Shown piece after piece: positions 2,731 to 60,462 of a DNA stretch of 64,000 nt. A program made the translations under genes and the position numbers. Each line of letters starts with the position of its first letter. Position 1 is the stretch's first letter. Source of the stretch: Lichenibacterium dinghuense (lineage in GTDB: Bacteria > Pseudomonadota > Alphaproteobacteria > Rhizobiales > Beijerinckiaceae); NCBI RefSeq assembly GCF_021730615.1, contig NZ_JAJLMN010000001.1:5733501-5797500 (forward strand), written 5' to 3'. The notes under the pieces are model-generated. The model saw nothing but the letters and a program-made list of their open reading frames with translations. It had not been told where the DNA came from and did no database searches.

Positions 2731-3326
2731 GGTGGGCGGAAATCCGGGATCGGCCCCTCACGCCGAGCAAGACGCGTTCCCGTCCGGGCACGGGCATGGA
2801 CGCAGGGCGACGGCCCCTCCCCCGGCGGTCCCGGACCCCGGAAACAAAGAGGCCGCCTGCCTCGCGGCAAGCGGCCCAAGTCTAGGGAGGAAACGCCCAA
2901 TGAAGGGCATGCGCCCGAAGGCGCAACGACAAGCTATGCTGCACCGCAGCAGGGCGCCACCCGGTCGCGTGCATGGCTCCATCCCACCCACGCGCATCCC
3001 GGCGTCGGCCCAGTCGGCCCGGCAGGCGGCTGTCCTACCGGTCGGTCCGAGCACACCTGATGCGGCTTCGTCCATCGTAGCCCGAGCAGGCCATCGCGAG
3101 GTCGGCCTTGCGGGTCAGCGACCACGCGGGCCTGCAGCGGGCACCCTCGGCCGTGACGGTCGGTCCCGGATCCCGTGCGGCCTGGACGATCTCGCCGAAA
3201 CACGCGGGTGGCGGCCCAGGCGTACGCCTTGACGCAAGTACCTCCGACACTCGTCCAACGGCCCCGCGTCGGAGTTACCCCCGGCTTCCCGGGCGTCCTC
3301 GCGCCCCGTGGCCAGGAGCGTGATCC
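2731..3326. other. Gene-free interval with one hairpin
   Basis: About 600 bases between the divergent metallopeptidase and LOV-kinase genes. At 2851-2875 there is an imperfect hairpin (arms about 11 bases with one mismatch, loop TCGC). A short frame from 2900 has a purine-rich GGGAGG nine bases upstream but codes for a peptide with no domain features, so I do not call it. The interval probably carries promoters for both flanking genes; no clear -35/-10 pair was seen. Confidence 0.5.
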
Positions 3327-5909: not shown

Positions 5910-5957
5910 ACCTGGACCGGGGCGGCGCGACCGTTCGGCGGTGTCCTGGCTGCGGCG

Positions 5958-6332
5958 TCAGGACACCATGCGACGCATTGCGTCGGCGACCCGCGACCGG
6001 TCGTACGGCTTGCCGAAGAACACCCCGCTCACGGGCAGCTCGCGCGACTGCGGACGGCGCCGGCCCGAGGTGACGATGATCCCCACGGGTGGCCAGCGGT
6101 CCCGGATGACGTGCGCCAGCCTCAGGCCATCCGCGCCATCCGCGAGGTCGATGTCGGTGAACACGAGACGGATGTCGTCGCGGGTTTCCAGGAGCCGCAC
6201 GGCATCGTCCGCCCCGCGCGCCTCCAAGGCCTCGAACCCGGCCTCCTCGACGAGGTCCACCGCCATGAGGCGGAGGATGGGCTGGTCCTCGATGACGAGC
6301 ACCACGGGCCTCGCCTTCCACGCTTCGCCCAT
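5958..6332 (-). CDS. Single-domain response regulator (stand-alone receiver)
   Basis: A 124-residue receiver: acidic pocket VIEDQP near residue 15, phosphoacceptor Asp60 in LVFTDIDL, Thr89 region IIVTSGRR, and Lys108 in FFGKPY. There is no output domain. The start is ATG at 6332, preceded by GAGGGA about seven bases away. It begins 11 bases after the stop of the HWE kinase and is surely co-transcribed with it. Single receivers next to HWE kinases in this group are usually phosphotransfer or feedback partners; that role is inferred here. Confidence 0.88.
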   Translation of the reverse strand: MGEAWKARPVVLVIEDQPILRLMAVDLVEEAGFEALEARGADDAVRLLETRDDIRLVFTDIDLADGADGLRLAHVIRDRWPPVGIIVTSGRRRPQSRELPVSGVFFGKPYDRSRVADAMRRMVS

Positions 6333-6342
6333 GCCCGGTCCC

Positions 6343-8850: not shown

Positions 8851-9240
8851 GCCGCCCTCCGCGAAGCCGTGCCTTCCATCGTTCCCTGGTGCCGCGCACG
8901 ATGCCGCTGCCGTCACAGCGGGACGGCCCCGCTCGCGACGTCGATGCGCCGGCACGCTATCCTTTGTTCATTTCGAAGTCGAGGTGGCCCCCTGTCGTGC
9001 CCCCCTTCCGCAGTCCCCGCGAGGTTGGCAGGGTTCCGTCGAGGTGCACGTACGTCGACTGACCTGCGCGCCACGGCGACGAACCAGGACATCCACGGTC
9101 CCGGACACGGCGTGCGGGGGCGAGGACGCTTGGGCGAGGCCGAGCAGGGGACCCGCGGGGCAGCCGGAGGCGAACGCCCGGACGAGTGAACCAACGCTTT
9201 CGTAGGACATCCGAGGTGGGTGGGCTCCTCTCCCTTCGAT
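8851..9240. other. Gene-free interval upstream of the HWE kinase
   Basis: About 390 bases with only overlapping GC-rich frames of no recognisable content. It must contain the HWE kinase promoter (reading left). No hairpin or repeat of note was seen. Confidence 0.45.
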
Positions 9241-9815
9241 TGACTACGCGACCTGCGCCGCGAGGCGTTCCTTGCCGACGCTGGCCAGGATCATGCCGCC
9301 CTGGGCCCCTTCCGCCCGCGCCACCGCCAGGGCAGGGTGCACGCAGGGCCGATGAGTCGACGCTTCGGTGACAGGCGAGGCCCAAGATCGCCGAGGCCAT
9401 GGCATGCCGGGAGTACGCCTGGCCTGCGTAGCCACGGGACCTGGGCTCGGCGCCGTCGCTGCTGCACAGGAACCGACCTGGTGCACCGATGACGCCGGGC
9501 GGTCGGCACCGCCGAGGCGGTTGGCCACAGCCTTGCGGTAGGCCGTGCAGGCCCTGGCGTGGCCGTCCCAGGTGAAAGGCACCTCGAACATAGCGATGTG
9601 GAGCTGCCTTACGCCTCCGGCCACGCGGACCGTGTCGCCCTGCAGGGCCCAGGGCTGCGCAGGGGCGGCGTCGCGGGACGCCTTGGCGAGTTCTCGGTAC
9701 CGCTGGAACCCGTCCCATCCCTGGATGGCCAGCGACGGCGTCAGCGCGATGGCGACGAGAGACAGCAGGCGTGCGAGGAGGCTTAAGGTGTGTCCGGTCG
9801 GCTCGGGCTAGGCAG
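9241..9815 (-). pseudogene. Decayed secreted-protein gene with two compensating frameshifts and no normal start codon
   Basis: Reading leftwards from about 9805, one frame gives a typical signal peptide (LLARLLSLVAIALTPSLA), then WDGFQRYRELAKASRDAAP and MFEVPFTWDGHARACTAYRK up to about 9480. Protein-like sequence then continues in another frame (GRFLCSSDGAEPRSRGYAG, HAMASAILGLACHRS) and returns to the first frame for GAQGGMILASVGKERLAAQ before a TAG at 9241. No ATG, GTG or TTG precedes the signal peptide before an in-frame stop. This pattern suggests two indels and a lost start. The family was not recognised; a sequencing error is the alternative explanation. Confidence 0.45.
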
Positions 9816-9820
9816 GGCAA

Positions 9821-10663
9821 TCGCTACCATGGAACCTTGTGGTCGTGGTGTTGAGGTCAAACTGGCAGGAAGCGCTTCCCGCTTTCGAAGGCTAAAGAAT
9901 CAATCTACGCATCCTTCGATGCCCCACGCCCTCAACGGAAGTCACGGTACCGCTCCGGCAAGGGTCGGGATGGGCGTACGCCCGGTCAAGACAGCAAGCC
10001 AAATCGCCGGGTTCGCCGTTATTTCATCAAGTATTGACTCACAACCCTATACTTGCGCGCTATCGGGCGCAGGCAGCTCGATCGGCACCATCAGCATCTT
10101 CTGAAAGCGCCCGAGGGCCGAAAAATTTTTTCACGTTGTCCACTTTTTCGCATCCTCGGCTCGACCGCATGAAACCCAAGATTTAATCCGCCGAAACCAA
10201 CCTCAACCATGGCGTACAGGGTAGCTTATTGATGTGATCCGGACTGAGCGTTTAAGGAAAGCCGGCGACCGTTTGCATCCTGGAAGCGCTTGGTCATTGC
10301 GTGTCGAACCTGTGCGACCTCCGACGTGGCTGGGGCGTCCATAGAGCGTCAGACACACCGTCGACGAGCGATTGAACAGCGGGACTGATGTGCCAGAATG
10401 GCACCGGGAAGATGGGCACCCTGGCGACCCACGCGCCCGGAAGCCCTCGGGAAACGGCCTCCCGGGGCCTTCGCGCGTGACACGCACGCGCACGCACGCG
10501 GGCGCACGGCCGGACGGGATGCCGACCTCGGCGCCGCCCGTCCGTCCGGCGGCCGGGACGCCGACGCGGCCGCGCCGGTCTTGACCGCCGCCGCCCCGCG
10601 CGTGCCGGTGCGGCGCCGACGGGCCCCGCCGCGGGGACCCGCGCGCCAGGCGAGGCCGAGGGG
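9821..10663. other. Long gene-free interval, lower GC in the middle
   Basis: About 840 bases without a supported gene. The stretch 10010-10210 has clearly more A/T than its surroundings, including a run of T at about 10124-10131. A TTGACT at about 10033 and TATACT nearby look like promoter boxes but are only eight bases apart. Near 10481-10505 there is a short alternating purine-pyrimidine tract of CGCACG repeats. The region probably marks the left edge of the integrated island and carries the promoter of the following operon. Confidence 0.45.
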
Positions 10664-11245
10664 ATGGACGAGCTGTCGGAAGTCGTCGCACGTGCGACGG
10701 AGGCCGTGGATGCGGGTTACGTGAGGCTGCGCATCGATGGTGGTCGCCCTGCCTACCGCGAGCGCGTGTACTGCTACGAACTCTACCATCAGATGCGAAC
10801 GGTCTGGCCCAGGGAATGCCCGTACACCTTGAACGGCGAGGTCGACAAGCGCGCCCACCCGATCATGGCCGACCTGGGGCTCGGGCAGGTCCCGGACCTT
10901 CTCGTTCACAGGCCCGGCAGCATGGCTGGCAACCACGCGATCATCGAGGTGAAGCACGGCGGGGGATCGACGGCGGGCTTCGCCAAGGACCTGGAAACCC
11001 TGTCGGGCTTCCGGCACAGGGCGCGCTACAGGCGCGCCATCCTGCTCGTCTATGCCACGTCGGGCAGGCCGGGGCTGCTGGGCACCATCGAGGCGCTGTA
11101 CGACCTCATGGACGAGCCCGCCGAGGTCGAGGTCTGGTTCCATCGCCGGGCGGGCGAGGCGGCGCGGCGCGAGTGCGTGCTCGCGCCCGACGGTGGGAGC
11201 GGGCCGTGGCCCAGGTCGCCGCCGCGGGGCGCCCGGAAGGCTTGA
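10664..11245 (+). CDS. Hypothetical protein with PD-(D/E)XK nuclease-like motif
   Basis: A 193-residue protein of unrecognised family. The segment VPDLLVHRPGS ... NHAIIEVKHG has the spacing of a PD-(D/E)XK nuclease core (PD, then E-x-K on the next strand, about residues 86-107), and an upstream acidic residue in NGEVDKRAHP could complete the site. A second half predicts alternating helix and strand (RRAILLVYATSG, GTIEALYDLMD). The C-terminal 25 residues are Gly/Pro/Arg-rich. It is first of three same-strand genes beside an integrase, which fits accessory or defence roles, but catalysis is inferred only from the motif. The ATG follows a purine-rich CCGAGGGG. Confidence 0.6.
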   Translation: MDELSEVVARATEAVDAGYVRLRIDGGRPAYRERVYCYELYHQMRTVWPRECPYTLNGEVDKRAHPIMADLGLGQVPDLLVHRPGSMAGNHAIIEVKHGGGSTAGFAKDLETLSGFRHRARYRRAILLVYATSGRPGLLGTIEALYDLMDEPAEVEVWFHRRAGEAARRECVLAPDGGSGPWPRSPPRGARKA

Positions 11246-47273: not shown

Positions 47274-48068
47274 TCAGCGAGCGGTCAAGTCCTTTGCTTT
47301 CTCCTTGGTGGGTTTGGAGGCCTTTGCCGAACTGTTCCTGAAACGGAAGCTGTCGTTTCCGGTTTCCAGGATATGGCAGTGGTGAGTGAGGCGGTCGAGC
47401 AAGGCCGTGGTCATCTTGGCATCTCCGAAGACTGTGGCCCACTCCGAAAAACTCAGATTAGTGGTGATCACGACGCTGGTACGTTCATACAGTCTGCTTA
47501 GCAGATGGAACAGCAAGGCACCACCCGAGGCGCTGAACGGCAAGTATCCCAGTTCATCGAGGATAACGACATCCGAATGGACAAGTCGGCCGGCGATCTG
47601 TCCGCCCTTTCCTTGAGCTTTCTCCTGTTCAAGGGCGTTGACGAGTTCCACGGTGGAGAAGAAACGGACTCGCTTGCGATGTTGCTCGATGGCTTGGATG
47701 CCGAGGGCTGTGGCGATGTGAGTCTTGCCAGTGCCAGGACCTCCGACCAGAACGATGTTGTGAGCATCGTCCAGGAACTCGCAACGATGGAGCTGGCGGA
47801 CGAGAGCTTCGTTGATCTCGCTGCTGGTGAAGTCGAAGCCGTTGAGATCGCGGTAGCTCGGGAAGCGGGCAGCCTTGAGCTGGTAGGCTGTTGAACGGAC
47901 TTCCCGCTCGGCTGTTTCTGCCTTCAGGAGCTGCGACAGGATCGGCATGGCCGCCTCGAACGCCGGCGCGCCCTGTTGGGTCAGCTCCTCGACGGCTTGG
48001 GCCATGCCGTGCATCTTCAGGCTCCGCAGCATGATGACGATGGCTCCGCTGGCCGGGTTATGGCGCAT
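47274..48068 (-). CDS. istB: IS21-family helper ATPase IstB (copy 2)
   Basis: A 264-residue AAA+ helper: Walker [17 protein letters not shown], Walker [18 protein letters not shown], then [20 protein letters not shown]. Own start ATG at 48068, overlapping the original istA stop region. Because of a one-base loss in istA the istB frame is now also the continuation of the istA frame, so a fused protein can be made. Confidence 0.93.
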
Positions 48069-49586
48069 GACGCACCTCCCTGGCCCGACGCAAAGCGTCG
48101 TAGCGTTCGACGTTGGCCCGCGGTTCGGTGACCAGCGTGAGCGCCTGGGAGTGTCGACCGTCGGCGCAGTCGGCGGTGTGCCGTCGATCAGTCGGTGCAG
48201 CAGGTTGATGATGTGGGTCTTGGCCGGCACGCCGGCCTTCAAGGCCAGTTCGACGGCCGTGAGCACGGCTTCCTCGTCATGCTGGAGGACCAGGGCCAGG
48301 ATCTCGACCATCTCGCGGTCGCCACCTGGCGTCTTGAGCAGGTGCTGCTGCAGGGCCCTGAAAGCGTCCGGCATCTTGGCGAAGGGCGCGCCGTTCCGCA
48401 GTGCACCAGGTTTGCGTTGCACGACCGCCAAGTAATGACGCCAGTCGTAAACCGTCTCGCTCCGACGATCATGGGACCGAGCGAAGACGCGACGGTGCTC
48501 ACCGATGGCTTGTCCGTCGGCGACGAGGAGGATGCGGTCGGGATAAACGCGCAGACTGACTGGGCGGTTGGCGAAGGACGCAGGCACGCTGTAGCGGTTG
48601 CGCTCCAGATGGACGAGGCAAGTCGGAGAAACGCGTTTGGTGTACTCGACGAAGCCGTCGAACGGTCGAGGCACAGCCATCAGATGCCGGACTTCCTCGG
48701 CCCAAATTTCGGCGATCGTGCCGGGCTGCGATCCGTGCGGCGTCACAGCCCACAACTCCCTGCATCGTTTCTCCAGCCAGTCGTTGAGCGCATCCAGGGA
48801 AGGGAAGCTCGGCATGGGCTGCCAAAGCCGATGACGGGCGTCCTGCACGTTCTTCTCGATCTGCCCCTTCTCCCAACCGGAGGCTGGATTGCAGAACTCA
48901 GCCTGGAAAAGATAATGGCTGACCATGGCCGAGAAACGGATGTTGACTTGTCGTTGCTTGCCGCGGCCGACCTTGTCGACGGCAGTCTTCATGTTGTCGT
49001 AGATGCCGCGTTGCGGCACTCCACCCAGGACGCGGAACGCGTGGACATGAGCGTCGAACAGCATCTCGTGGGTTTGTAGTAGGTAGGCCCGGAGGGTAAA
49101 GGCACGACTATAGGACAGTTTAACATGAGCGACCTGCAACTTGGTTCGCTCATCGGCAATCAGAGCCCAGTCTTCTGACCAGTCGAACTGGAACGCTTCG
49201 CCCGGCGTGAACGCCAGGGGCACGAAGGTGCCGCGACCACTGCTCAGTTGCTCACGCTGTCGGGCAGCCTTCCAATCACGGGCATAGGCGGCCACCCGAT
49301 TGTAAGAGCCCTCATAGCCGAGCCCGACGAGATCGACGTGCAGCTGCCCGATCGTCCGCTTCTGTTTGCGCGTCTTGGCCGACTCGATGCGCAGCATCGC
49401 CGAAAGTTTGTCAGCATATGCGTCGAGTTTACTCGACCGCTTGGAAGCTTTGAAGCGGGGTTCGACGTTTTCTGAGCGCAGATACTTGCGGACCGTGTTT
49501 CGCGATAGCCCGGTGCGTCGGGCGATCTCACGGATCGAAAGCTGGTCCCGGTAGTGCCAGCGTCGGATGACGCTCAATAACTCCAT
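48058..49586 (-). pseudogene. istA: IS21-family transposase IstA (copy 2), frameshifted near its 3' end
   Basis: About 480 codons of intact Ist[24 protein letters not shown], core Asp residues in [13 protein letters not shown] and [11 protein letters not shown], Glu in [15 protein letters not shown]. At the G-run 48147-48149 one base appears to be missing: in the adjacent frame the expected tail [20 protein letters not shown] continues to a TAA at 48058. In the present frame the tail is replaced by 20 unrelated residues and then IstB. Only the last 30 residues are affected, so activity may survive. Confidence 0.75.
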
Positions 49587-49707
49587 GTCGATCACTCCGA
49601 TGCCCCCCACACAGCCGCGTGGGAGGAGGTGAAAACATGGGTCAAATCTCAGTGGAAAAGTTCGTGCCCCCTGGGTCACTTCTCAGCGGAATTCAACACA
49701 CGCCGTC

Positions 49708-50212: not shown

Positions 50213-52957
50213 TCAGGCCGCTTCGGTAAGTGAAAAGCGGCCGAGGAGGTCCATGTCGGGAGCGACGGTATAGGCGGCGAGCAGGCCCGCCAAGGTCGCG
50301 CTGGGCTGGATCGCGTCATCCGGGATCAGCGCATATCTCCATGGCTTGCCGCCTGTCGGTTTGGCGTGGTGCTCGGTAGCGACGTGGCACCACAGGGTCG
50401 CCGAGCGAGTTTTCCGTAGCACCTCCGCATCCTGCATCTCGCTCTTCCGCTTAGGTTCGAGGATCAGCTTCTCGGTCTTCGTCTCGACTACGAAGTCTGG
50501 CTGGTAGGGTTCGCCGTTTTCGTCCTCGATGCGAAACTGGCCGGGGCCGGGCTTCATCCACTTCTCGACGCTGAGCTCCTGATCCAACAGCACGGCGAGC
50601 CGCCGCTCGGCGTCGCTGTCAAACTTCGAGAGGGCGAAGCAGCCGCGCTTGGCGCCCGTGAACACGAACTGCTTAATGGTCGAAAGCGGCGTTGGCGTCA
50701 TGGTGAGAGGAAGAGCCTTGCCCGCGCTCGCGTCATAGGTCTGCGGGCCGAGCACGCTAAAGGCGCGGGTGACGGTGAAGCGGTAGCCCGTCCGCGTCCG
50801 CCCCATATGCTCCAGCATCTGCGCGAAGATTGCGTCGTCGATGGCGCGCCTATGCGCGCGCAGCACCGCCCGCACCTCCGCGTTGTCCTTGAGGTAGCTG
50901 CGAAAGCGGGCGACCACCTGTCCGGCGAGGTCGTAGAGCAGTGTCGAGTGCGTATCGTAGTCGATTTCCGGCCGGTCGATCAGGAGGCCGACAATGATGT
51001 CCTCCGGCTGCTCCTCGATGTCGCCTTCAATCTCCGAGCCGATCAGCGACTGCTTGCCCTCCCGCAGCGTCTCGACCTTCAGTTCGCGCGCGAGGGGCTG
51101 GTAGTTCCAGCTACCGAGCCCTTGCAGCTTGAAGGGCTCGAACCAAAAGGCGACCTCCTGCATCGGCGATTGCACGATCTGCGGAATGTCGATGGTCTTG
51201 GCCGCGAACACTTCGCACAGTTCGGCGACGACGGCCTCCACGCGCTCGGGAGTGATCTCCGTCTTGAACAACCCCTCCTTGGCGTGCAGCGCGGCGAGCG
51301 CGTCCTTTGCCACCTCCCGCACTACCTTGGGCGAGGTGAGGTCGGCCATGGTCTTGACGCGGTTCGTGAAGGCGGGCAGCACCGTCTCGTATGCGGCCTT
51401 CCGCACCTCCACCTCGGCGGGAGCGTTAAAGGTGAAGGGCGAGGCGGGCGCCTCGGCGACGCCGGGCGGCAGGGGCACGTCGGCCGGGGGCGGCGCGATC
51501 CACTGCTCGATCAGGCTCGGCGCCTCCACCATCACGGGCTTGGCGATGGGCACGTCGCCACCTTCGCCGATGATGACCGCCTTGTGAATCAGGCCGCCTG
51601 CCGTCTTCGCGGCGTTGATGATCTCGTTGAAGCGGTCGTGGGCGATGACGGTCAGAGTGTCAACCGCCTCGACGCCCGTGCGCTTTCCGTAGGGTAGCCG
51701 CAGGCCGCGCCCCAGCGTCTGCTCCGTCAGGATGTCCGAGGCTGCGGCGCGCAGCGGCACGATGGTGAAGAGGTTGGTCACATCCCACCCCTCCTTCAGC
51801 TTGTTGACGTGGATCACCACGTCCATCTTGCCGGAGGTCTCCACGCTCAAAAGCTGCTGGGTGGTCTGCTCCGACTCCTCGCCGCTCTTGGCGGAGTGGA
51901 CGGTCAGCACGCGCCCGGCATAGCGGCCGTCGAAGAAGGCGGCGGATTCGATTAGTGTCTTCAACCGCTCGGCGTGCTGTATGTCGCTGGCCACCACCAG
52001 CATGAAGGGGTGCACGATGGGCTTGTTGTTCTGCCGGGCGTAGGTCTGAAGCTGCACCTTCACGTGCTCGTGGTAGTGCACGCCGTCTTCGAGCTTAATT
52101 TGTTCCAGCGTGGCCTCGTCTACCTTCTTCGGATCGAAGTTGGCGCGAGTGCCCACGGCGGGCTCCTTGACGTAGCCGTCCTCCATCGCCTCGGGCAAAT
52201 CGTATCGGTAAATAACGTTCTTGAACGCTGTCCCGCCTGCGCCCACCGCCTTCGGTGTCGCCGTGAGTTCGAGGCCGAGGATCGGCTGCAGTTCACTTAT
52301 CGCCTTCACGCCCGCCGACGCCCGATAGCGATGCGCTTCGTCCATCAGGAGCACGAGGTCAGGTAGCTCGGACAGGTAGTTAAAGTAGCTGTCGCCGATG
52401 TACTCTTGAAGCCGTTTAATACGAGGCGACTTGCCGCCGCGCACCTCGCTATTGATCTTGCTGATATTGAAGATGTTGATGATGGCTGCTTCGCGCCCCA
52501 GCAGGTCGGCTCCTCGAACGCCGCGTCCTTCCTCGTAGTTGTCGGCGTTGACGATCAGCGGCGGCTGTTGCGCGAACGCCTCCACGCCCCGAAAGACATA
52601 CTTGGGAGACTGTGGTTGGAAGTCGGCCAGCAACTTGTCGTAGATTGTCAGGTTAGGCGCGAGCACGAAGAAGTTGCGGCTCTTCCCCGTCATGAACAGG
52701 TAGCTGATGAAGGCGCCGAGGCACCTCGTCTTGCCCACCCCGGTAGCGAGCGCAAAGCAGACACTCGGGAAGTCGCGTTCGAAGTCCTGCACGCTCGGGT
52801 AGCTGGCCTTCACCGCATCCAGCGCTAGGCTCACGTCCGTTTTTTTGGAGGGGTCGGTGAGGTCGAGCACGGCCGCCAACCGCCGCAGCGACTCCTGCTG
52901 CGGCTTGCGGAGCGACAGACGCGCGCTGATCTGCGCGATGGCGCGAATGTCGCTCAC
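50213..52957 (-). CDS. Type III restriction enzyme, Res subunit (SF2 helicase-nuclease)
   Basis: A 914-residue protein. SF2 motifs: Walker A ATGVGKTRC (Lys77), DEAH in LLMDEAHRYRAS, motif III ELTATPKAVG, motif VI TEQTLGRGLRLPYGKR. The C-terminal nuclease core is visible as YQPDFVVETKTEKLILEPKR, a PD-(D/E)xK site. It should translocate and cut DNA together with Mod. The start overlaps the mod stop by four bases (ATGA). With mod broken, Res alone should be inactive, because type III enzymes need Mod for recognition. Confidence 0.92.
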   Translation of the reverse strand: MSDIRAIAQISARLSLRKPQQESLRRLAAVLDLTDPSKKTDVSLALDAVKASYPSVQDFERDFPSVCFALATGVGKTRCLGAFISYLFMTGKSRNFFVLAPNLTIYDKLLADFQPQSPKYVFRGVEAFAQQPPLIVNADNYEEGRGVRGADLLGREAAIINIFNISKINSEVRGGKSPRIKRLQEYIGDSYFNYLSELPDLVLLMDEAHRYRASAGVKAISELQPILGLELTATPKAVGAGGTAFKNVIYRYDLPEAMEDGYVKEPAVGTRANFDPKKVDEATLEQIKLEDGVHYHEHVKVQLQTYARQNNKPIVHPFMLVVASDIQHAERLKTLIESAAFFDGRYAGRVLTVHSAKSGEESEQTTQQLLSVETSGKMDVVIHVNKLKEGWDVTNLFTIVPLRAAASDILTEQTLGRGLRLPYGKRTGVEAVDTLTVIAHDRFNEIINAAKTAGGLIHKAVIIGEGGDVPIAKPVMVEAPSLIEQWIAPPPADVPLPPGVAEAPASPFTFNAPAEVEVRKAAYETVLPAFTNRVKTMADLTSPKVVREVAKDALAALHAKEGLFKTEITPERVEAVVAELCEVFAAKTIDIPQIVQSPMQEVAFWFEPFKLQGLGSWNYQPLARELKVETLREGKQSLIGSEIEGDIEEQPEDIIVGLLIDRPEIDYDTHSTLLYDLAGQVVARFRSYLKDNAEVRAVLRAHRRAIDDAIFAQMLEHMGRTRTGYRFTVTRAFSVLGPQTYDASAGKALPLTMTPTPLSTIKQFVFTGAKRGCFALSKFDSDAERRLAVLLDQELSVEKWMKPGPGQFRIEDENGEPYQPDFVVETKTEKLILEPKRKSEMQDAEVLRKTRSATLWCHVATEHHAKPTGGKPWRYALIPDDAIQPSATLAGLLAAYTVAPDMDLLGRFSLTEAA

Positions 52958-54629
52958 TTCGCGCCCTCGGGCGCGAACAGGTTGGATTGGGCCGGATCAG
53001 CTTTCGCCGACGCCTTGGACGTGGGCTCCAGCTCCAGCTCGTCCTCCGCCATGGGCAGGTTCGCAATCTTCAACGAGTAGTCGTCTTTGCCCCACTCACA
53101 GCGGTCGAGCACCGCGCCCGGAATTTTGCGGACAGTTAGGTTGGCGAAGGAGTCCACCTTGGCGCCTTGGAACGCCTTGCAGCAGATCAGGAGCGTGCGC
53201 TCCGGCCCGACCTCTTCGGAGATCACCTTCAACTGCTCGTGCGTCAGGCTGTTGGTGGTGACGTAGATGAAGTCCGTCTCGGACGAGCGGCCCTGCATCC
53301 AGTAGTGCTCAGGGTGCGGCGCGTAGGTGAAGCCGAAGTGCACGCATATGGCTTTGGCTAGCATCTCGGCGTTGTAGGCCGGGCTGATGACCCACTGCCC
53401 GAAGGCATCCTTTTCCATCAGCGACGGCGCCAGCCGGTAGTAACGGTAGCCCCCACCACCTTCCCAGCCGACCGCCTCGGTAATCCCGCTTCTGTCGGTT
53501 CCATCAACTACCGAGTTCATACGGGGAGCGATGTGAGTTTCACAATGATCTTTCAACTCGACCATGACCCAGCGACGGCCCATCTTGTGGGCGACTGCAC
53601 CTGTAGTTCCCGAACCAGCAAACGAGTCCAAAACAATATCGCCGGGCGTTGTTGAGAGTTCTATGCACCTTTTAATCAAAGCCTCCGGTTTTTTTCCTTT
53701 CGGGAAATGCACACCCCCTTCCTTGTGTAGATTGTTCGACAGAAGGTCATCCCAGAGTGTCGTCAGTGGTTCGCCAGACACATAAACGCCATCAATCAGC
53801 TTAAGCTTGGATGCGTAAAACAATGCTCGCTGTCCGTCTCTTATAAAGAGATCGTCATGATCAGCTCTTTCAACAATATGCCATACGCGGGGACTAGCTC
53901 TAGAGTCGTCTATCGCCTTTTTGATGTCTTTTCCGACAGCATCGTAGTCAGGCTGAGCCCAACGAATCACATTTCTAGCATTACTCATCACGAAATTATC
54001 AAGCAATTCCGGATTATCTTTCACTAATTTTCGAGCCTCACGTTCCAGTAGACCATTTGAATCCGCAAAGGCTGTCATGAGCGGAACAACTTGCCACTCT
54101 TTGAACGAAGATGATACATTAGTGATATACTGATTATAGCGTAGGTCGCGATCCCGCGCGGAATAGACACGGTTCGGCGTCCACATAGATCGGTCTTTTG
54201 CATACACCAAAATGAAGTTGGTCGTACTAACGCATCCAGGATTGATAGATTTGTGTCCGGTCGCCGAACCCTGCTTGAAGGTGACGATGTAGGCGCGATT
54301 TTCGCGACCAAATATCTCGTCGCAGAGAACAGTCAAATAGGCTAGCTCATTGTCATCTATATGGATGAATATTGTTCCATCTGTTGTTAGTAGGTTACGC
54401 AAGATGCTGAGGCGTTCCCGCATTAGAGACAGCCATATCGAATGTTCAACGCCATCATCATAATATTCTAGAGCTTGAAGTGTATTAAACGGTGGATCGA
54501 TGTAGATGCACTTGACTCTGCCCCGCATGCTCGACTCTATAGCCTTCAATGCAAGTAGATTGTCGCCGTGGATCAGCACATTATCAAAAACATCACCGTG
54601 GCGCCTTGAGGTTGCGTGATAGGACCTAG
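52954..54629 (-). pseudogene. Type III DNA adenine methyltransferase Mod, main part, separated from its 5' end by an IS5-group element
   Basis: About 555 codons of a beta-class N6-adenine methyltransferase: catalytic DPPF in CIYIDPPFNTLQ, then the variable recognition region (A/T-rich, roughly 53.6-54.4 kb), then the AdoMet motif VLDSFAGSGTTGAVA. The first about 30 codons lie at 56006-56097, beyond the IS. Removing the IS and one CTAG joins them in frame (VEEPPRSYHATSRR). At present a frame starting at an ATG inside the IS end (54675) could still make a Mod with a foreign N-terminus. Its stop overlaps the res start. Confidence 0.88.
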
Positions 54630-56005
54630 CAGGCCGCTGAAAAAGGCTTCGGGGTCTGGCCAGTTCGTGATTCACTCCGCCTTGCTCATGGGGGGAGTAT
54701 CGAGTGCGCGGACAGGACAGCCGGAGCGGCTCGCTGTTTTCCTACGTGGACCTGGAGCAGCGGGTCCGTTCGGATCATCCCCTGCGTACGATCCGGGCTT
54801 TGGTGAACGAAGCTCTGGCGTCGCTCGACGGGCGCTTCGGCGAGATCTACTCGGAGATCGGCCGTCCCTCGATCCCGCCCGAGCAGCTGCTGCGGGCGAT
54901 GCTGCTGCAGGTCTTCTATTCGGTGCGGTCCGAGCGCCAGCTGATGGAGCAGCTCGACTTCAACCTTCTGTTCCGCTGGTTCGTGGGCTTGGGCATCGAC
55001 GATCCCGTGTGGGACGCCTCGACCTTCTCCAAGAACCGCGACCGCCTGCTCGACGGCAGCGTGGCGGCGGCGTTCCTGAGTGCGGTGCTGGCCATCCCGC
55101 GGGTGAAGCGGCTGCTGTCGCAGGACCACTTCAGCGTGGACGGCACGCTGATCCAGGCCTGGGCCTCGATGAAGAGCTTCAGGCCCAGGCACGGCGACAC
55201 GCCGCCGAACCCGCCCGCTTCTGCCGAGCCGCCCGCGGGCGGGCGCGGTGGACGCGGTGGACGCAATGCCGAGGCGGACTTCCACGGGGAGCGCCTGAGC
55301 AACGACACGCATCGGAGCGTCACGGATCCCGAGGCGCGGCTTTACCGCAAGGGACGGGGCCGGGAAGCCAGGCTGTGCTTCATGGGGCATGCGCTGATGG
55401 AGAACCGCCATGGGCTGATCGTGGACGGCTGCGTGACCGAGGCCAACGGCCACGCCGAGCGCACCGCGGCCCTCGCCATGATCGAGAAACGCGCCGATCG
55501 GCCGGGCCGCATCACGCTCGGGGCCGACAAGGGGTATGACGCCGAGGACTTCGTCAACGAGCTGCGGAGCATGAACGTCACGCCGCACATCGCCCGCAAC
55601 ACGGCCAAGCGCCGCTCGGCCGTCGACGGGCGCACGACGCGTCACCCCGGCTACGCCGTGAGCCAGCGCATCCGCAAGCGCATCGAGGAGGGGTTCGGCT
55701 GGGGCAAGGAGTTCGGGCTGCTGCGCCGCATCCGGATGCGCGGCCGCGAGCGGGTCGACATGGCCTTCGCCGTCTCGGCCGCGGCCTGCAACCTCATACG
55801 CCTGCCAAAGCTGCTGGCCGAACCAGCGGTGGCGTGAGGTGGCGTGACATGGGGCCCTGTCCCGTCGCGACGAGCGCCAGCCCCGTCGCGGCGGCAAAGG
55901 AGCGGACAGCAAAAAGACCGACCCTCACGCTTTCCATCGTCCACCCGCCAAAAACGACGCCGGATGAAGCTCAGGGGCTGAACGTCGACCTTTTTCAGCG
56001 ACCTG
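54630..56005. mobile_element. IS5-group insertion sequence in mod, with CTAG target duplication
   Basis: A 1376-bp element with terminal inverted repeats CAGGCCGCTGAAAAAGG at 54630 and CAGGTCGCTGAAAAAGG read inward from 56005, differing at one base. CTAG flanks both ends (54626-54629 and 56006-56009), as expected for the YTAR targets of this group. One transposase gene, opposite in direction to mod. Confidence 0.92.
54704..55837 (+). CDS. IS5-family (DUF772/DDE) transposase
   Basis: A 377-residue DDE transposase. N-terminal DUF772-type region (VRSDHPLRTIRALVNEALAS; MLLQVFYSVRSERQLMEQLD), then DDE residues: Asp in HFSVDGTLIQAWAS, Asp in LGADKGYDAEDFV, Glu in RIRKRIEEGFGWGK. The GTG start at 54704 has GGGGGAG six bases upstream. 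It appears intact, so the element could still move. Confidence 0.93.
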   Translation: MRGQDSRSGSLFSYVDLEQRVRSDHPLRTIRALVNEALASLDGRFGEIYSEIGRPSIPPEQLLRAMLLQVFYSVRSERQLMEQLDFNLLFRWFVGLGIDDPVWDASTFSKNRDRLLDGSVAAAFLSAVLAIPRVKRLLSQDHFSVDGTLIQAWASMKSFRPRHGDTPPNPPASAEPPAGGRGGRGGRNAEADFHGERLSNDTHRSVTDPEARLYRKGRGREARLCFMGHALMENRHGLIVDGCVTEANGHAERTAALAMIEKRADRPGRITLGADKGYDAEDFVNELRSMNVTPHIARNTAKRRSAVDGRTTRHPGYAVSQRIRKRIEEGFGWGKEFGLLRRIRMRGRERVDMAFAVSAAACNLIRLPKLLAEPAVA

Positions 56006-56097
56006 CTAGGGGGCTCCTCAACTAAGATTCTTGTTTCCACGCGAGGACGCCGATCCTTCCCGATCCACGTCAGGTCCAGCTTCGTCTTCTCAGCCAT
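56006..56097 (-). pseudogene. 5' fragment of the disrupted type III mod gene
   Basis: ATG at 56097 starts MAEKTKLDLTWIGKDRRPRV, a normal Mod N-terminus, and reaches VEEPP at the IS border. The start overlaps the stop of the upstream Abi_C gene by one base (TGATG), showing the original operon coupling. Read-through into the IS gives a dead-end frame of about 150 codons. Confidence 0.85.
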
Positions 56098-56957
56098 CAA
56101 GCGGCCTCCGCAGCGCGTCGCGCGCGCTGATATTCATGGGTGTCGTAGAGGAAATCGCCGAGCGCGAACGCGGCGTTGACCACCAGCTTCGCGTGGTGCG
56201 GTGCGGGGTGGTAGCGACGGTCATGGCGGTCGCTCGCCTTGTTGGCCGTCGCGTAGAGGCCGCTGACGAGCTTTTGGAAGCCGTCGAGCACCGTCTTTAG
56301 GTGCACCTCAAGCGACTCGTCCTTGGGATCGAGATGCAGCGGCGCCTTCAGGGCGGTGTAGAGCGCGCGGATGTCGCCCTCGTCCGCCTTGAAGGCAACG
56401 CCCGCCTGCCGCAGCAGATCTTTCAACACCGCCTCGATCAGGGTGTAGGCGTTGGTGATCGCACCTGCGCTGTCGCCTGAGGCGATTTTGGCCCGGCACT
56501 TCTCGATGTACTCTCCCAGCGTGGCGTGGCTCACCGCCGCCAGAGCGACCGGATCCACCGTGCCTGCGCTGAGGGCGACGAGCTTAAAGCGTGGCACCCC
56601 TTCGACCTCGTGCCCGTTGTCGATCCACCCCGGACCGATAACCTTGGCGAGCCGATAGCCGTCGCGGGTCAGAAGCTTGTTGAAGTCGGCGGCCGCCGCT
56701 TCAGGGTCCAGGTCCGGCTCACCCCAAATATCGAAGGCTGCGAGCACCGCATCTCGCATCCTCGACGTGCCGTTGAGTGCGTCCAGCTTCTCGCGCGTAT
56801 GCGGATTGCGAGAACCGAAGCCCGCGCCGTAGCTGTCGTCCCAGCCGAGTGCGTTGAAGAAGGCGATGATCTTCGGGCCGCCTCGATACGGGTAGGGTCC
56901 GCCGTCGCCAGTGATGACTCCGGTGAGCTTGTCCAAGGTGCGCGGTGAGAGCCTCAT
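56097..56957 (-). CDS. Abortive-infection C-terminal (Abi_C) domain protein
   Basis: A 286-residue protein. The C-terminal half (GDSAGAITNAYTLIEAVLKD, then FKADEGDIRALYTALKAPLH, GFQKLVSGLYATANKASDRH, VNAAFALGDFLYDTHEYQ) fits the Abi_C domain found in abortive-infection proteins. The N-terminal half resembles a small alpha-helical domain (TLDKLTGVITGDGGPYPYRG). Overlaps the helicase stop by four bases and the mod start by one, so it is an integral part of the operon. It may act as a guard, effector or nucleic-acid binder; that is inferred. Confidence 0.8.
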   Translation of the reverse strand: MRLSPRTLDKLTGVITGDGGPYPYRGGPKIIAFFNALGWDDSYGAGFGSRNPHTREKLDALNGTSRMRDAVLAAFDIWGEPDLDPEAAAADFNKLLTRDGYRLAKVIGPGWIDNGHEVEGVPRFKLVALSAGTVDPVALAAVSHATLGEYIEKCRAKIASGDSAGAITNAYTLIEAVLKDLLRQAGVAFKADEGDIRALYTALKAPLHLDPKDESLEVHLKTVLDGFQKLVSGLYATANKASDRHDRRYHPAPHHAKLVVNAAFALGDFLYDTHEYQRARRAAEAA

Positions 56958-59815
56958 GCCGCCAGCATCCATCGCGCTGAGAACAGCGGCGTGAGCTTCG
57001 GCGTGAGGCTCAGTCGCGCAGCGATCTCGTCTAGCATGCGGTTGCGTTCGGCGTCGATCTCCTTCAGCCGCGTGTAGAGTTGGTGGTTTAGGTCGTCGGA
57101 CTCGCGGCGTAGGGCGGCCGCGTCGCGCTGGAGCGCGACCTTATCCGGCAAGGTGACGCTGGCGCGGGCGAGCTTGTCTTTCTCCTTGGCCTCCTTGCCG
57201 AGGACCTTGATCTTGGACTCGTAAGAAACGCGCGCATCCTCCTGCCATAGGTTGAGGCGGGTCTCCTCCTCGTCGAGGAAGTCGCCGAGGCGGGTCTGCG
57301 CGGCACCCACCAAGGCGGTCTGCGCGTCGGCGATCAGTCGGTCGAGGTTTGGGGGCGGGGCCGCGCCGTCCGCCTGCCTCGCCGTGGCCGGAACCTGCAT
57401 CAGCCGCTCCGCTGTCTCGCGCGGCACCACCCCACCGTCGTCCGTCAGGGCCACCACGATCAGGTCGTCGTAGCGTTTGGCGGGCGTGTCGAGCGTCAAC
57501 CGGGCCGCCGCGAGCCAGCCGCTGTCGCCGCGCAGCAACTCCACATCGGCCAGCTTGCCCGTGTAAGCGTCGAGATCGAAAGCGAGGGTCGCTGGGGCGA
57601 GCTCACGGTCCATCGCGCGGTCGGCGAGCGTGGTCGCAAGCTCGCCATCACTTAGGCGGTAGAACCGCCAGCCTCTCTCCTCGGAGACCGGCCACTCCGC
57701 CGTGTAGGTTGCGCCGTCGTAATCGAAGCGCTCGGCGTGGTCGGGGTGGAACCGGGCCTCAGGCAGTTCGGCGCGGGCGAGCCGCAATAGGGCCAGCTTG
57801 AAATCCCCAAGCTGGGCGTCGATCCGGCCCTTCTCGAACTTGAGCCGAGCGACCACCTTATCGTCCATCTCGGCGAGAATTGCCTCGCGCGCCTTGGTCT
57901 TGGCCTCGTCGATCTCAACAAATAGGTCGAGTTGCAGGGTCTCGAAGGCTCGGTCGATCTCAGCATTCGAGCGGCACGATTGCACGATGCCGAGGATGCG
58001 CTTTTCGATGTCCACCCCGCTCTCGATGGCGCCCAGCACCTCGTCGGAGGAGCCGAACACGCCGCTGAACAGGTTGAACTTGGAGGCGAGCAGTTCGACA
58101 ATCCGGGCCTCGGCGTGGTTGCCCCGGTTCATCATGTTGACGACGGTTACATCGATCTTCTGGCCGTAGCGGTGGCAGCGACCGATCCGCTGCTCCACGC
58201 GCTGTGGGTTCCACGGCAGGTCGTAGTTGATGAGCAGTGAACAGAATTGAAGATTAATGCCCTCCGCCCCGCTCTCCGTGGCAATCAGAATCGTACGGTC
58301 GTTCCTGAATGCGTCCACGATGGCGGCCTTTAGGTCCGCGCTCTTCGTCTTCGAGACGACGTTGCTGTTCCCGGCGTGCTTGGCCAGCCACGCCTTGTAG
58401 AGAGCTTGGCTTTCCGCGTCGGTGTTGGCACCGTTCATCAGCACCGTCTGCCCAGCGAAGCCGTTGGCCTCCAGCAGGTCGCGCAGATAGCGTTGGGTGC
58501 GGACGCTCTCAGTAAAGATCACCGCCTTGCGCTGGCCGCCCTTCGCCTCGATTTGCTTAAGCACGTCCGGCAAGCTGCCGACGAGGGCGCGTCCCTTCGC
58601 GTTGTCGTCGATGGATGTTGCGAGGTTGCGGAAGCCGCGTAGCTCCTCGATCTCACCGCGCAGCAGCGCAGGGTCGGCGGCTACGACCGACTCGGCTTCG
58701 TTCGCCTCCAGCGCGTCCGCCTCGGCATCGGCGGCGCCCTCACGCCATGTCTCGGCCGTCTCCTCCATCCCGTCATAGTCGGCCAGCATCTCCTCTCCGA
58801 CCTCCAGCTTGCGCTCCAAGCGGGCGATCATCTTGTCGAGGGTGGCCGCGACCGCGAAAGACGAGGAGCCGAGAATCTTCCGCAGGACGAGGGTGACGAG
58901 GTGGCGGCCCGTCTTGCCGATGGCCAACGTGTCCTCGCGCTGGAGGTATTCGGACATCTGCTCGTAGAGCTTTGTTTCCAGCGCGCTCGGCGTGAAGTCG
59001 AACGTCTCGGCCATGCGTTTGGTGTAGCTGATGAGCCCGGCCTGCTGGACCTGCCGCCGCAGCGTGCGTTTGCAGATCGGCTCCAGCCTTCGGCCCAGCA
59101 CCGCCAGCGTGCTAGCGTCCGACTTGCCGAACTCGGCGCGGAAGGCATCGGGCGAGCCGAAGAAGTGCTCGTCGATGAGCGATAGCAGGCCATATAGCTC
59201 CATCAGATTATTCTGGAGCGGAGTGGCCGTAAGCAGCAGCTTCTGCCGATCAGCCAGCGCGCGCCGCAGGACGGCGGAGCGAGAATTATCGGTCGCGCGG
59301 TAGACGTTCCGCAGCTTGTGAGCCTCGTCCATAACCACGAGGTTCCACGAAATTGCCTGAAGCTCGGGCGCGATCCGGGCGGCGTATTCGTAGGACAGGA
59401 TGACGACGGCGTCCGTGCGATCCAGCGGACGCGCCTCGCCCGCCTTCTTCAACTCGCGCACGCGCTTGGCGTCGAGGATCACGCTGGGCAGGGAGAACTT
59501 CTCCCAAAGCTCCTGCTGCCACTGCTTCCGCAGCGACGCGGGCGCGATCAGGAGCAGGCGCCGGCGCCCCTCCCACCACCGCTGCGTGATGACGAGGGCC
59601 GCCTCGATAGTCTTGCCCAACCCCACCTCGTCGGCCAGTAGCACGCCTTTGGACAAGGGCGAGCGCAGGGCGAACATGGCCGCATCGACTTGGTGAGGGT
59701 TCAGGTCCACCCGCGCGGCCGACAGCGATTGAGCCAGTCCCTCACCCTCAGCGATCCCCTCGCGGGTCACGTAGTGCGCGAAGAACTTGGCTTGGTGGGG
59801 CGTGTAGCCCGTCAT
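56954..59815 (-). CDS. SNF2-family DEAD/DEAH helicase, first gene of the defence operon
   Basis: A 953-residue SF2/SNF2 ATPase: Walker A LLADEVGLGKTIEAALV, DEAH in LVVMDEAHKLRNVYR, motif III LLLTATPLQNNLMELYGLLS, helicase C with NLQFCSLLINYDLPWNPQRV then EQRIGRCHRYGQ. A long C-terminal region with a coiled coil (KVLGKEAKEKDKLARASVTL ... LYTRLKEIDAERNRMLDEIA) replaces a nuclease. Related to the SNF2-type helicases of defence operons such as DISARM DrmD, but the rest of DISARM is absent. It leads a tightly overlapped set: SNF2, Abi_C, Mod, Res. Confidence 0.9.
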   Translation of the reverse strand: MTGYTPHQAKFFAHYVTREGIAEGEGLAQSLSAARVDLNPHQVDAAMFALRSPLSKGVLLADEVGLGKTIEAALVITQRWWEGRRRLLLIAPASLRKQWQQELWEKFSLPSVILDAKRVRELKKAGEARPLDRTDAVVILSYEYAARIAPELQAISWNLVVMDEAHKLRNVYRATDNSRSAVLRRALADRQKLLLTATPLQNNLMELYGLLSLIDEHFFGSPDAFRAEFGKSDASTLAVLGRRLEPICKRTLRRQVQQAGLISYTKRMAETFDFTPSALETKLYEQMSEYLQREDTLAIGKTGRHLVTLVLRKILGSSSFAVAATLDKMIARLERKLEVGEEMLADYDGMEETAETWREGAADAEADALEANEAESVVAADPALLRGEIEELRGFRNLATSIDDNAKGRALVGSLPDVLKQIEAKGGQRKAVIFTESVRTQRYLRDLLEANGFAGQTVLMNGANTDAESQALYKAWLAKHAGNSNVVSKTKSADLKAAIVDAFRNDRTILIATESGAEGINLQFCSLLINYDLPWNPQRVEQRIGRCHRYGQKIDVTVVNMMNRGNHAEARIVELLASKFNLFSGVFGSSDEVLGAIESGVDIEKRILGIVQSCRSNAEIDRAFETLQLDLFVEIDEAKTKAREAILAEMDDKVVARLKFEKGRIDAQLGDFKLALLRLARAELPEARFHPDHAERFDYDGATYTAEWPVSEERGWRFYRLSDGELATTLADRAMDRELAPATLAFDLDAYTGKLADVELLRGDSGWLAAARLTLDTPAKRYDDLIVVALTDDGGVVPRETAERLMQVPATARQADGAAPPPNLDRLIADAQTALVGAAQTRLGDFLDEEETRLNLWQEDARVSYESKIKVLGKEAKEKDKLARASVTLPDKVALQRDAAALRRESDDLNHQLYTRLKEIDAERNRMLDEIAARLSLTPKLTPLFSARWMLAA

Positions 59816-59913: not shown

Positions 59914-60462
59914 TCAACCTGCCTCTTGCAGCACACGGTAGACCTGCATCCGCGAGCACCCGACCTCGCGGGCGATGACGGCCGGCCCGTTGCCGGCGGC
60001 GTGCAGCGTTCGGATGCGCTCGCGGTCAAGGCGGCGCTTGCCACCGGTGTACGCGCCCTCGCTCTTTGCCCGAGCGATGCCCTCGCGCTGGCGCTCCTTG
60101 ATGAAGCGCCGTTCCATCTGGGCGACCATGCCGAGGACGGTCAGAACAAGGTGGCCCATCTCGCCGCGCGTCGAGACATGCGGGTCGAGGACGGTGACGA
60201 AGGCGCCCCGCTGCTCGGCCTCGTGGATCAGGTTGAGCACGTCGCGGGTATCGCGGCCGAGCCGGTCGAGGCGGGTGACCACGAGTTCGTCGCCGGGGCG
60301 CAGGAACTCCAGCACGGTCGCCAGCTCGGTCCGGCCGTCGCGGCTGCCGCCCGAGACCTTCTCCGAGCGGGTCACCCCGCAGCCTTCGGCTTTCAGCTTC
60401 GCGAGCTGACCATCGAGATCCTGGTCGAGCGTGCTGACGCGGGCGTAACCGATGCGGGCCAT
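59914..60462 (-). CDS. Serine recombinase (resolvase/invertase family)
   Basis: A 182-residue small serine recombinase. The catalytic domain starts IGYARVSTLDQDLDGQ with nucleophile Ser10, followed by VSGGSRDGRTEL, LVVTRLDRLGRDTRDVLNLI and MERRFIKERQREGIARAKSE; the C-terminal HTH is NGPAVIAREVGCSRMQVYRV. Full length and apparently active. It lies just upstream of the defence operon and next to a spacer with palindromes. Probably left from a transposon or plasmid resolution system. Confidence 0.92.
   Translation of the reverse strand: MARIGYARVSTLDQDLDGQLAKLKAEGCGVTRSEKVSGGSRDGRTELATVLEFLRPGDELVVTRLDRLGRDTRDVLNLIHEAEQRGAFVTVLDPHVSTRGEMGHLVLTVLGMVAQMERRFIKERQREGIARAKSEGAYTGGKRRLDRERIRTLHAAGNGPAVIAREVGCSRMQVYRVLQEAG

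Follow-up and report, generated by a model that had tools for sequence, protein, structure and literature searches.

Type III restriction-modification (R-M) systems rely on Mod, which recognises a short DNA motif and marks it, and on Res, which cuts DNA lacking the mark; Mod is needed to place Res on the DNA. For a subgroup of m4C-specific Type III systems, including Eco86II and BspHIV, a gene for a helicase-like ATPase has been described 5′ of mod (Murray et al. 2021, PMC8259958). Here we describe a locus with this gene order in the genome of Lichenibacterium dinghuense. It is located in a stretch of 64,000 nucleotides (contig NZ_JAJLMN010000001.1, positions 5,733,501 to 5,797,500), in the following called the window, and its operon comprises the genes for an SNF2-family ATPase, an Abi_C-domain protein, Mod and Res. 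Comparison with related loci revealed that the constant gene set consists of three genes (SNF2 ATPase, Mod and Res) and not of four, and that the interval between SNF2 and mod is a slot in which the genes differ from locus to locus and are replaced between nearly identical cores.

Genes embedded in defence operons have been discussed in other contexts. Toxin-like genes inside R-M operons were proposed to act as a second line when restriction fails, with PrrC and EcoPrrI as the model, and AbiJ, Abi2 and RhuM were named as R-M partners (Anantharaman et al. 2013, PMC3710099). AIPR was called common in R-M operons (PMC2292703). In BREX and BREX-related (DUF499) systems, auxiliary or backup effectors of the HEPN, PIN, Schlafen, TOPRIM and HKD types were reported (NAR 2026, PMC12839542).

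Comparison of the locus with described systems

An initial annotation had placed four genes on the minus strand of the window, and ORF (open reading frame) analysis and domain matches bear out these positions. The first gene (56954..59815) encodes a DrmD/RapA-like SNF2-family ATPase of 953 amino acids with SNF2-rel_dom and Helicase_C domains. The slot is occupied by the Abi_C gene (56097..56957), whose product matches PF14355 with 41.6 bits (cut-off 24); its longest ORF of 291 amino acids begins at 56972, and the start at 56957 is plausible from the starts of its relatives. The mod gene is split by an insertion element into a 5′ part (56006..56097) and a 3′ part (52954..54629). The former matches the N-terminus of MTase_III (E 4.2e-7), and the ORF of the latter carries DPPF at 60 and then FAGSG at 352, which is the order of beta-class Type III methyltransferases (DPPY/F before FxGxG). 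An N6_N4_Mtase domain and a PADLOC MTase_III match of 571 bits were found for the mod product. The last gene, res (50213..52957), encodes a Type III restriction subunit of 914 amino acids, with a ResIII ATPase domain (73.6 bits; PADLOC REase_III 756 bits) and a PD-ExK nuclease motif (PDFVVE and EPKR, corresponding to PD...ExK), and its match to Pfam RE_endonuc has 17.4 bits, under the cut-off of 23.4. Walker A and DEAH motifs are present in both SNF2 and Res. The claim that the genes overlap by 1-4 bases at every junction was confirmed base by base: the SNF2 stop codon TGA (56954-56956) and the Abi_C start codon ATG at 56957 form a 4-nt overlap, the Abi_C stop and the ATG of mod have one base in common (56097), and the mod stop and the GTG of res overlap by 4 nt (52954-52957).

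The gene order of the window is that of the subgroup of Murray et al., and SNF2 of the window is homologous to the ATPase encoded at the candidate Eco86II locus of E. coli NCTC86, with 40% identity over the whole length (995 columns). In contrast, Mod (1,040 amino acids) and Res (1,126 amino acids) of NCTC86 belong to another branch: the two Res proteins gave no blastp match at 1e-3, Mod gave only local matches of 94 and 56 amino acids, and the slot of NCTC86 is empty. The initial annotation had left it undecided whether the gene set had been described before. The three-gene core of SNF2, Mod and Res is already in print (PMC8259958), whereas no description of an exchangeable slot between SNF2 and mod was found in the open-access literature searched, subscription papers being outside that scope. 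The excerpts of PMC8259958 considered here contain no mention of variable genes between the ATPase and mod.

With the PrrC-EcoPrrI model the window shares a toxin-like gene embedded in an R-M operon, but a fixed slot, an SNF2-Mod-Res core or an exchange between near-identical cores is not described in the excerpts of PMC3710099 considered here. A likeness to BREX is given by the combination of a RapA-like SNF2 helicase, a methyltransferase and many embedded effectors (PMC12839542). However, BREX-type cores contain BrxC or DUF499 ATPases, whereas the core in the window consists of Type III Mod and Res. As DUF499 has no match in the genome of the window, membership in the BREX-related (DUF499) systems was rejected.

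The closest named family of the SNF2 ATPase is DrmD of class 1 DISARM, and the locus could accordingly be regarded as a degraded DISARM system. The best family matches are indeed DrmD models (619 bits with PADLOC and 619 bits with NCBIfam NF038318), but the curated cut-off is 950, and an SNF2-first search of 299 Pseudomonadota genomes yielded 12 matching genomes, none of them above the DrmD cut-off. In the window, neither drmA nor drmB is among the genes adjoining the operon. The only match in the genome to PF09369 (MZB), which we take to be the DUF1998 region of DrmB-like proteins, is located at C1:2,235,934 (2.24 Mb), far from the window at 5.73 Mb. No drmA or drmB is named in ten annotated plasmid loci, the relatives having not been searched for them otherwise. 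With a DrmD score under the cut-off and no drmA/drmB at the locus, it was not assigned to DISARM, and a degraded DISARM system is very improbable.

A further candidate is MADS, the methylation-associated defence system. In the E. coli loci L209, L210, L211 and L213 (8814-9014), a small HTH gene before SNF2 is named 'mads1' by NCBI. This label derives from a 49-residue HTH model that is passed by 3.5 bits in L209, and no other gene there is named MADS. The protein kinase in the slot of L084 reaches 56.9 of 460 bits for MADS6, far under the cut-off. In the genome of the window, the MADS2 and MADS5 models gave matches below cut-off at other places and none at the locus, and at E 0.01 the window proteins matched no MADS model. 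Since the MADS2 and MADS5 equivalogs are not at the locus, this assignment was rejected as well.

A constant core of three genes

For a survey starting from Res, one genome per species was searched with a Res alignment, and the best 80 of at least 446 relatives were taken with flanks of up to 10 kb. All 80 loci were parsed with SNF2, Mod and Res profiles, SNF2 being counted if an ORF of at least 400 amino acids was found upstream. This was the case in 46 of the 53 loci in which Res is preceded by 7 kb or more of sequence. The other seven comprise L057, where a fragment of SNF2 remains, L058, where mod is broken, and L072, L080, L092, L095 and L097. A mod gene was seen in 74 of the 80 loci, and in the remaining six Res lies less than 2 kb from a contig end. 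Loci with SNF2, Mod and Res in this order, of which there are 48 among the 80, are called complete in the following.

Searches starting from SNF2 gave a corresponding picture. Apart from the window, the SNF2-first search delivered 11 loci, 7 of which have a methyltransferase and a Res-type gene downstream, while the other 4 run off their contigs. A separate SNF2 search (7 of 385 genomes matching) detected both mod and res in L030, L031 and L032; the contigs of L016 and L033 are shorter than 5 kb, and L029 has SNF2 and an AAA gene without a recognised mod. The genome of the window itself contains another SNF2 gene belonging to this family (L028, G000 C1:3349036-3351918), which is about 42% identical and has no adjoining mod or res. 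On plasmids, 20 of the 25 Res records also appear among the SNF2 records (the best 40 of 50), and tallies by genus point to 24 of 25. The pairwise identities of SNF2 and of Res correlate over 57 loci (Spearman 0.70), a value reached in none of 999 permutations.

The SNF2 family is combined with at least three kinds of Mod-Res: that of the window, the NCTC86/Eco86II kind (L025-L027, L031, L032, L139 and L212), and a third kind in L030, with a PDLC03647-type Res; the scores of L131 are similarly weak. The Type III Res family PDLC03647 was also used as a control. It was found at 14 places in 12 of 240 genomes, and 10 regions (11 places) were examined, G077 and G215:C61 being left out. A close SNF2 gene was detected in none of the 10 regions (best 124 bits). 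With long flanks, a distant SNF2 gene and DUF4391 were found before mod and res in 4 of 8 regions (L160, L161, L162 and L164). Moreover, the PDLC03647 place in G168 is L030, which carries an SNF2 of the window's family, and thus the control is not clean. Because PDLC03647 loci also carry SNF2 genes, the occurrence of SNF2 ATPases alongside Type III genes is a wider theme. DUF4391 is listed in the open-access literature searched solely in a table (PMC7784981), and SWI2/SNF2 and Type III Mod/Res are named in one set of islands in a legend (PMC11090510).

In L170 (Thioclava plasmid p5, 5989-9690), an ORF of 1,233 amino acids fuses SNF2 residues 4-829 to Res residues 514-908, and no slot or mod is annotated beside it. 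This ORF may be a deletion product, or it may give a Rosetta-stone hint of an interaction between SNF2 and Res.

A slot with exchangeable content between SNF2 and mod

Measured between the longest ORFs of the 48 complete loci, the gap between SNF2 and mod is short in 12 loci (at most 13 nt, with an overlap in 11) and long in the other 36 (393 nt or more). One of the long gaps, that of L047, was considered as a decayed slot and rejected, as it looks like an empty slot followed by a broken mod frame. This leaves inserts in 35 of the 48 loci. The PLD-type gene on the opposite strand of L039 likewise led us to reject a decayed slot in this locus.

At least 14 different contents of the slot were distinguished, Abi_C among them. 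According to Pfam, PADLOC and NCBIfam matches of cluster representatives, not of each single gene, the 48 loci comprise 13 with an empty slot, 10 with a protein resembling the SNF2 C-terminus, 5 with an AAA/SMC ATPase, 3 with DUF2130, 3 with Schlafen AlbA_2, 2 with Abi_C (L048 and L064), 2 with AAA_21 and DUF4276 (the latter presumably TOPRIM-like) and 2 with ietAS. One locus each contains the PLD-type gene, Panacea, PIN, SIR2 with a HerA-type gene (L060), TcmP with DUF5131 and a protein kinase, or a YhcG-type gene, and 2 slots are without any match. In some loci there are extra slot genes beside the named one. Other locus sets add Abi_2 (L036), AIPR (L135 and L136), AIPR with VapC (L037) and another unknown (L144). 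In L090 and L091, a complete ietAS-like defence pair (AAA and subtilase) is found inside the restriction operon, IetS of L090 scoring 1214 bits with PADLOC. Filled gaps between mod and res contain, among others, RhuM or YhcG/DUF1016 genes, and GmrSD in L030.

The SNF2-C-terminus-like slot family of 11 alphaproteobacterial loci (L023, L046, L050, L054, L056, L062, L073, L076, L086, L087 and L089) was rejected as an effector. It resembles the C-terminal region of SNF2 (99.5% probability in a profile comparison) and forms one clade with its cores, hence both were inherited together. The tails of these proteins are variable, and one of them ends in a weak, below-cut-off match of the GreA/GreB type.

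The exchange of slot genes can be followed in closely related loci. L036 and L135 have Res proteins that are 91% identical, and their DNA loses alignment near the end of SNF2 and regains it where mod begins; in the interval, L036 carries an insertion sequence (IS) element with Abi_2 and L135 carries AIPR. L043 and L044 are one insert apart at the same point. In the E. coli loci L209 and L210, the DNA of SNF2 and Res is 97% identical and the slots differ: IS1, Abi_2 and a small gene are found in the former, an Abi gene (66% identical DNA) and AIPR in the latter. L211 is 99.9% identical to L210 except for the loss of 1.2 kb in the slot, which removes most of AIPR. The middle part of mod is also variable between the compared loci and is probably the target-recognition domain. 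The architecture, the position of the slot, its variability and its replacement between near-identical cores are thus apparent from the loci themselves.

On the Res tree, which like the SNF2 tree was a quick search with SH-aLRT support only, the 20 slot states of 64 loci require no fewer than 24 changes, which is more than one gain per state. The clade of the window comprises 8 loci (SH-aLRT 100), and the other seven are without Abi_C, six with empty slots and one with a PLD-type gene. In the more careful Abi_C tree, the protein of the window groups with those of L142, L048 and L064 (support 87/88), the cores of which are located in another clade. Repeated movement or loss of the cassette would be expected to produce such a mismatch.

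These results bear directly on the idea of a true four-gene system with Abi_C as an essential subunit. The overlaps at every junction of the window would fit such a system, as would the finding that L048, L064 and L142 have Abi_C in the corresponding position and that L097, where mod and res are present and no SNF2 was found, has it beside mod. However, Abi_C fills the slot in only 2 of the 48 complete loci of the Res-first survey, it is missing from the rest of the window's clade, and the Res tree requires at least two gains or losses of it. Relatives of Abi_C also occur without the SNF2-Mod-Res core. We consider a four-gene system very improbable. The initial annotation had proposed an extended Type III system made of a fixed, coupled set of four genes. 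Its extension by SNF2 as a regular partner and by a further embedded gene is retained, the fixed set of four is not; the proposed co-occurrence with mod and res was confirmed for the helicase and failed for Abi_C.

According to a different explanation, the slot is merely a permissive site within a mobile defence island, functionally unlinked to the restriction core, and defence genes gather in it because inserts are tolerated between SNF2 and mod. Whole independent systems in the slot, such as ietAS in L090/L091 and SIR2 with the HerA-type gene in L060, are in line with this, and so are the IS elements that have landed there (L036 and L209), the PLD-type insert of L039 on the opposite strand and the 13 empty slots. 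On the other hand, in the same operons the gap between mod and res is 300 nt or longer in only 6 of 48 loci. Most inserts have the direction of the core genes. In 24 of 34 loci the first slot gene begins no more than 40 nt from the stop codon of SNF2, and in 25 of 34 the last one ends no more than 40 nt from mod, which suggests shared translation. In our opinion a merely permissive site is less likely than not, but it retains considerable plausibility.

The Abi_C protein, the disrupted mod gene and the possible role of slot genes

The predicted structure of the Abi_C protein (pLDDT 68.6, pTM 0.44) has a HEPN-like C-terminal half, although the evidence for this fold is weak: the best Foldseek match is the HEPN protein 2hsb (E 0.1, TM 0.73 by target), and none was obtained at E 0.001. 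The catalytic motif of HEPN proteins is R-x4-6-H. In the protein of the window the arginine is replaced by A, the histidine is kept and a new R is found just before it. Of 32 Abi_C loci checked for this motif, 11 were unreadable and 21 readable, two of which represent the same gene. All five copies in the slot or adjacent to mod have A or S at the position of the catalytic arginine and a new R before the histidine, whereas the arginine is kept in 14 of 15 other copies, which have no core gene in their flanks (about 1.5 kb for most). The exception, L177, has a neighbour gene that is presumably ThyX-like. On the Abi_C tree the loss of the arginine is one change, and thus one event instead of five. 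Five of the six members of the arginine-less lineage are located in the slot or next to mod, which speaks against a merely permissive insertion point. The changed motif suggests that the slot Abi_C lineage is functionally special or catalytically altered. The complete order of SNF2, Abi_C, Mod and Res was also observed on a viral contig (L142, IMGVR_UViG_2687453119_000006, 2767-11040); a query of viral contigs with Abi_C detected no relative.

In the window, mod is interrupted after about 30 codons by an IS5-family element of 1,376 bp (54630..56005, plus strand; transposase ORF 54704-55837). The 5′ part comprises the first 92 nt of mod (56097 down to 56006), that is 30 codons and 2 bases, including the first copy of the sequence CTAG, which flanks the element on both sides (56006-56009 and 54626-54629). 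The inverted repeats of the element match at 16 of 17 bp, and six near-identical full-length copies are present in the genome, the one in mod included. The listed mod ORF (52954-54675) has its first codons within the element. SNF2 and Abi_C, upstream of the insertion, are still open, and a second match to mod was not detected in the genome at E 1e-10. An intact mod adjacent to res, as in a regular Type III system, is found in relatives and not in the window copy, which, because of the split in mod, is probably disabled as a restriction system.

We regard it as fairly probable that the locus represents a Type III operon with SNF2 before mod, in which the slot takes effectors that act as a second line and profit from co-expression with the core. 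SNF2, Mod and Res would form the inherited core, and a probable role of the SNF2 ATPase is to remodel DNA that is bound by Mod-Res or by phage machinery, or to travel along it. A variety of immune effectors, or entire small defence systems, would be accommodated by the single slot between SNF2 and mod. A gene in this slot probably provides a second, mostly cell-sacrificing response, which would be helped by co-expression and might be set off once restriction is blocked or overrun, as is PrrC in the case of EcoPrrI. We consider second-line effectors the likeliest explanation because of where the slot is located, how tightly its genes are spaced and what it contains, together with the analogy to PrrC-EcoPrrI and to the BREX backup effectors.

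Several points weigh against this interpretation. We infer the defence role of each slot gene, its coupling to the core and its trigger. The survey comprises the 80 nearest Res relatives of the window, which is a non-random sample, and lacks a control for how often defence genes are found at other junctions. The core is kept in 13 of 48 loci regardless of an empty slot. Shuffled slot labels need 43 changes instead of the observed 24; the states are clustered on the tree, and therefore many cassettes are stable and partly inherited. According to PMC8259958, the extra ATPase, present in hundreds of Type III loci, is dispensable for methylation with its role left open, and it was undetected in an Eco86II preparation that cut partially. 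As the slot Abi_C lacks the HEPN arginine, RNase activity is not to be assumed. Finally, the genome of the window tolerates an open Abi_C gene although the adjoining mod is broken; unless Abi_C is inert, this speaks against a simple switch that is released by loss of Mod.

In a more far-reaching explanation, SNF2 would be a general sensor hub, which watches the engagement of Mod-Res with invading DNA and signals to whichever effector fills the slot. We judge this to be unlikely. If it were true, HEPN, Schlafen, SIR2, subtilase, PLD and kinase killers could be plugged in, and the extra ATPase of hundreds of Type III systems as well as the fixed position of the slot would be explained. In that case, the Abi_C lineage adapted to the slot, in which the HEPN motif is altered, would represent an effector that has grown dependent on the hub.

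A fixed slot for exchangeable effectors beside the extra ATPase offers a testable idea of what this ATPase is for. The interval between SNF2 and mod can also serve as a neighbourhood rule for finding more defence genes, unknown slot proteins included.

Two genes outside the operon complete the picture of the window. A serine recombinase of the resolvase family is encoded directly upstream on the minus strand (59914..60462); it was regarded as a neighbour and not counted as a member of the operon. In IS21-type elements, the transposase and IstB are usually encoded by two genes. At 47274-49679, an ORF of 801 amino acids combines a Mu-type transposase C-terminal domain with an IstB domain.

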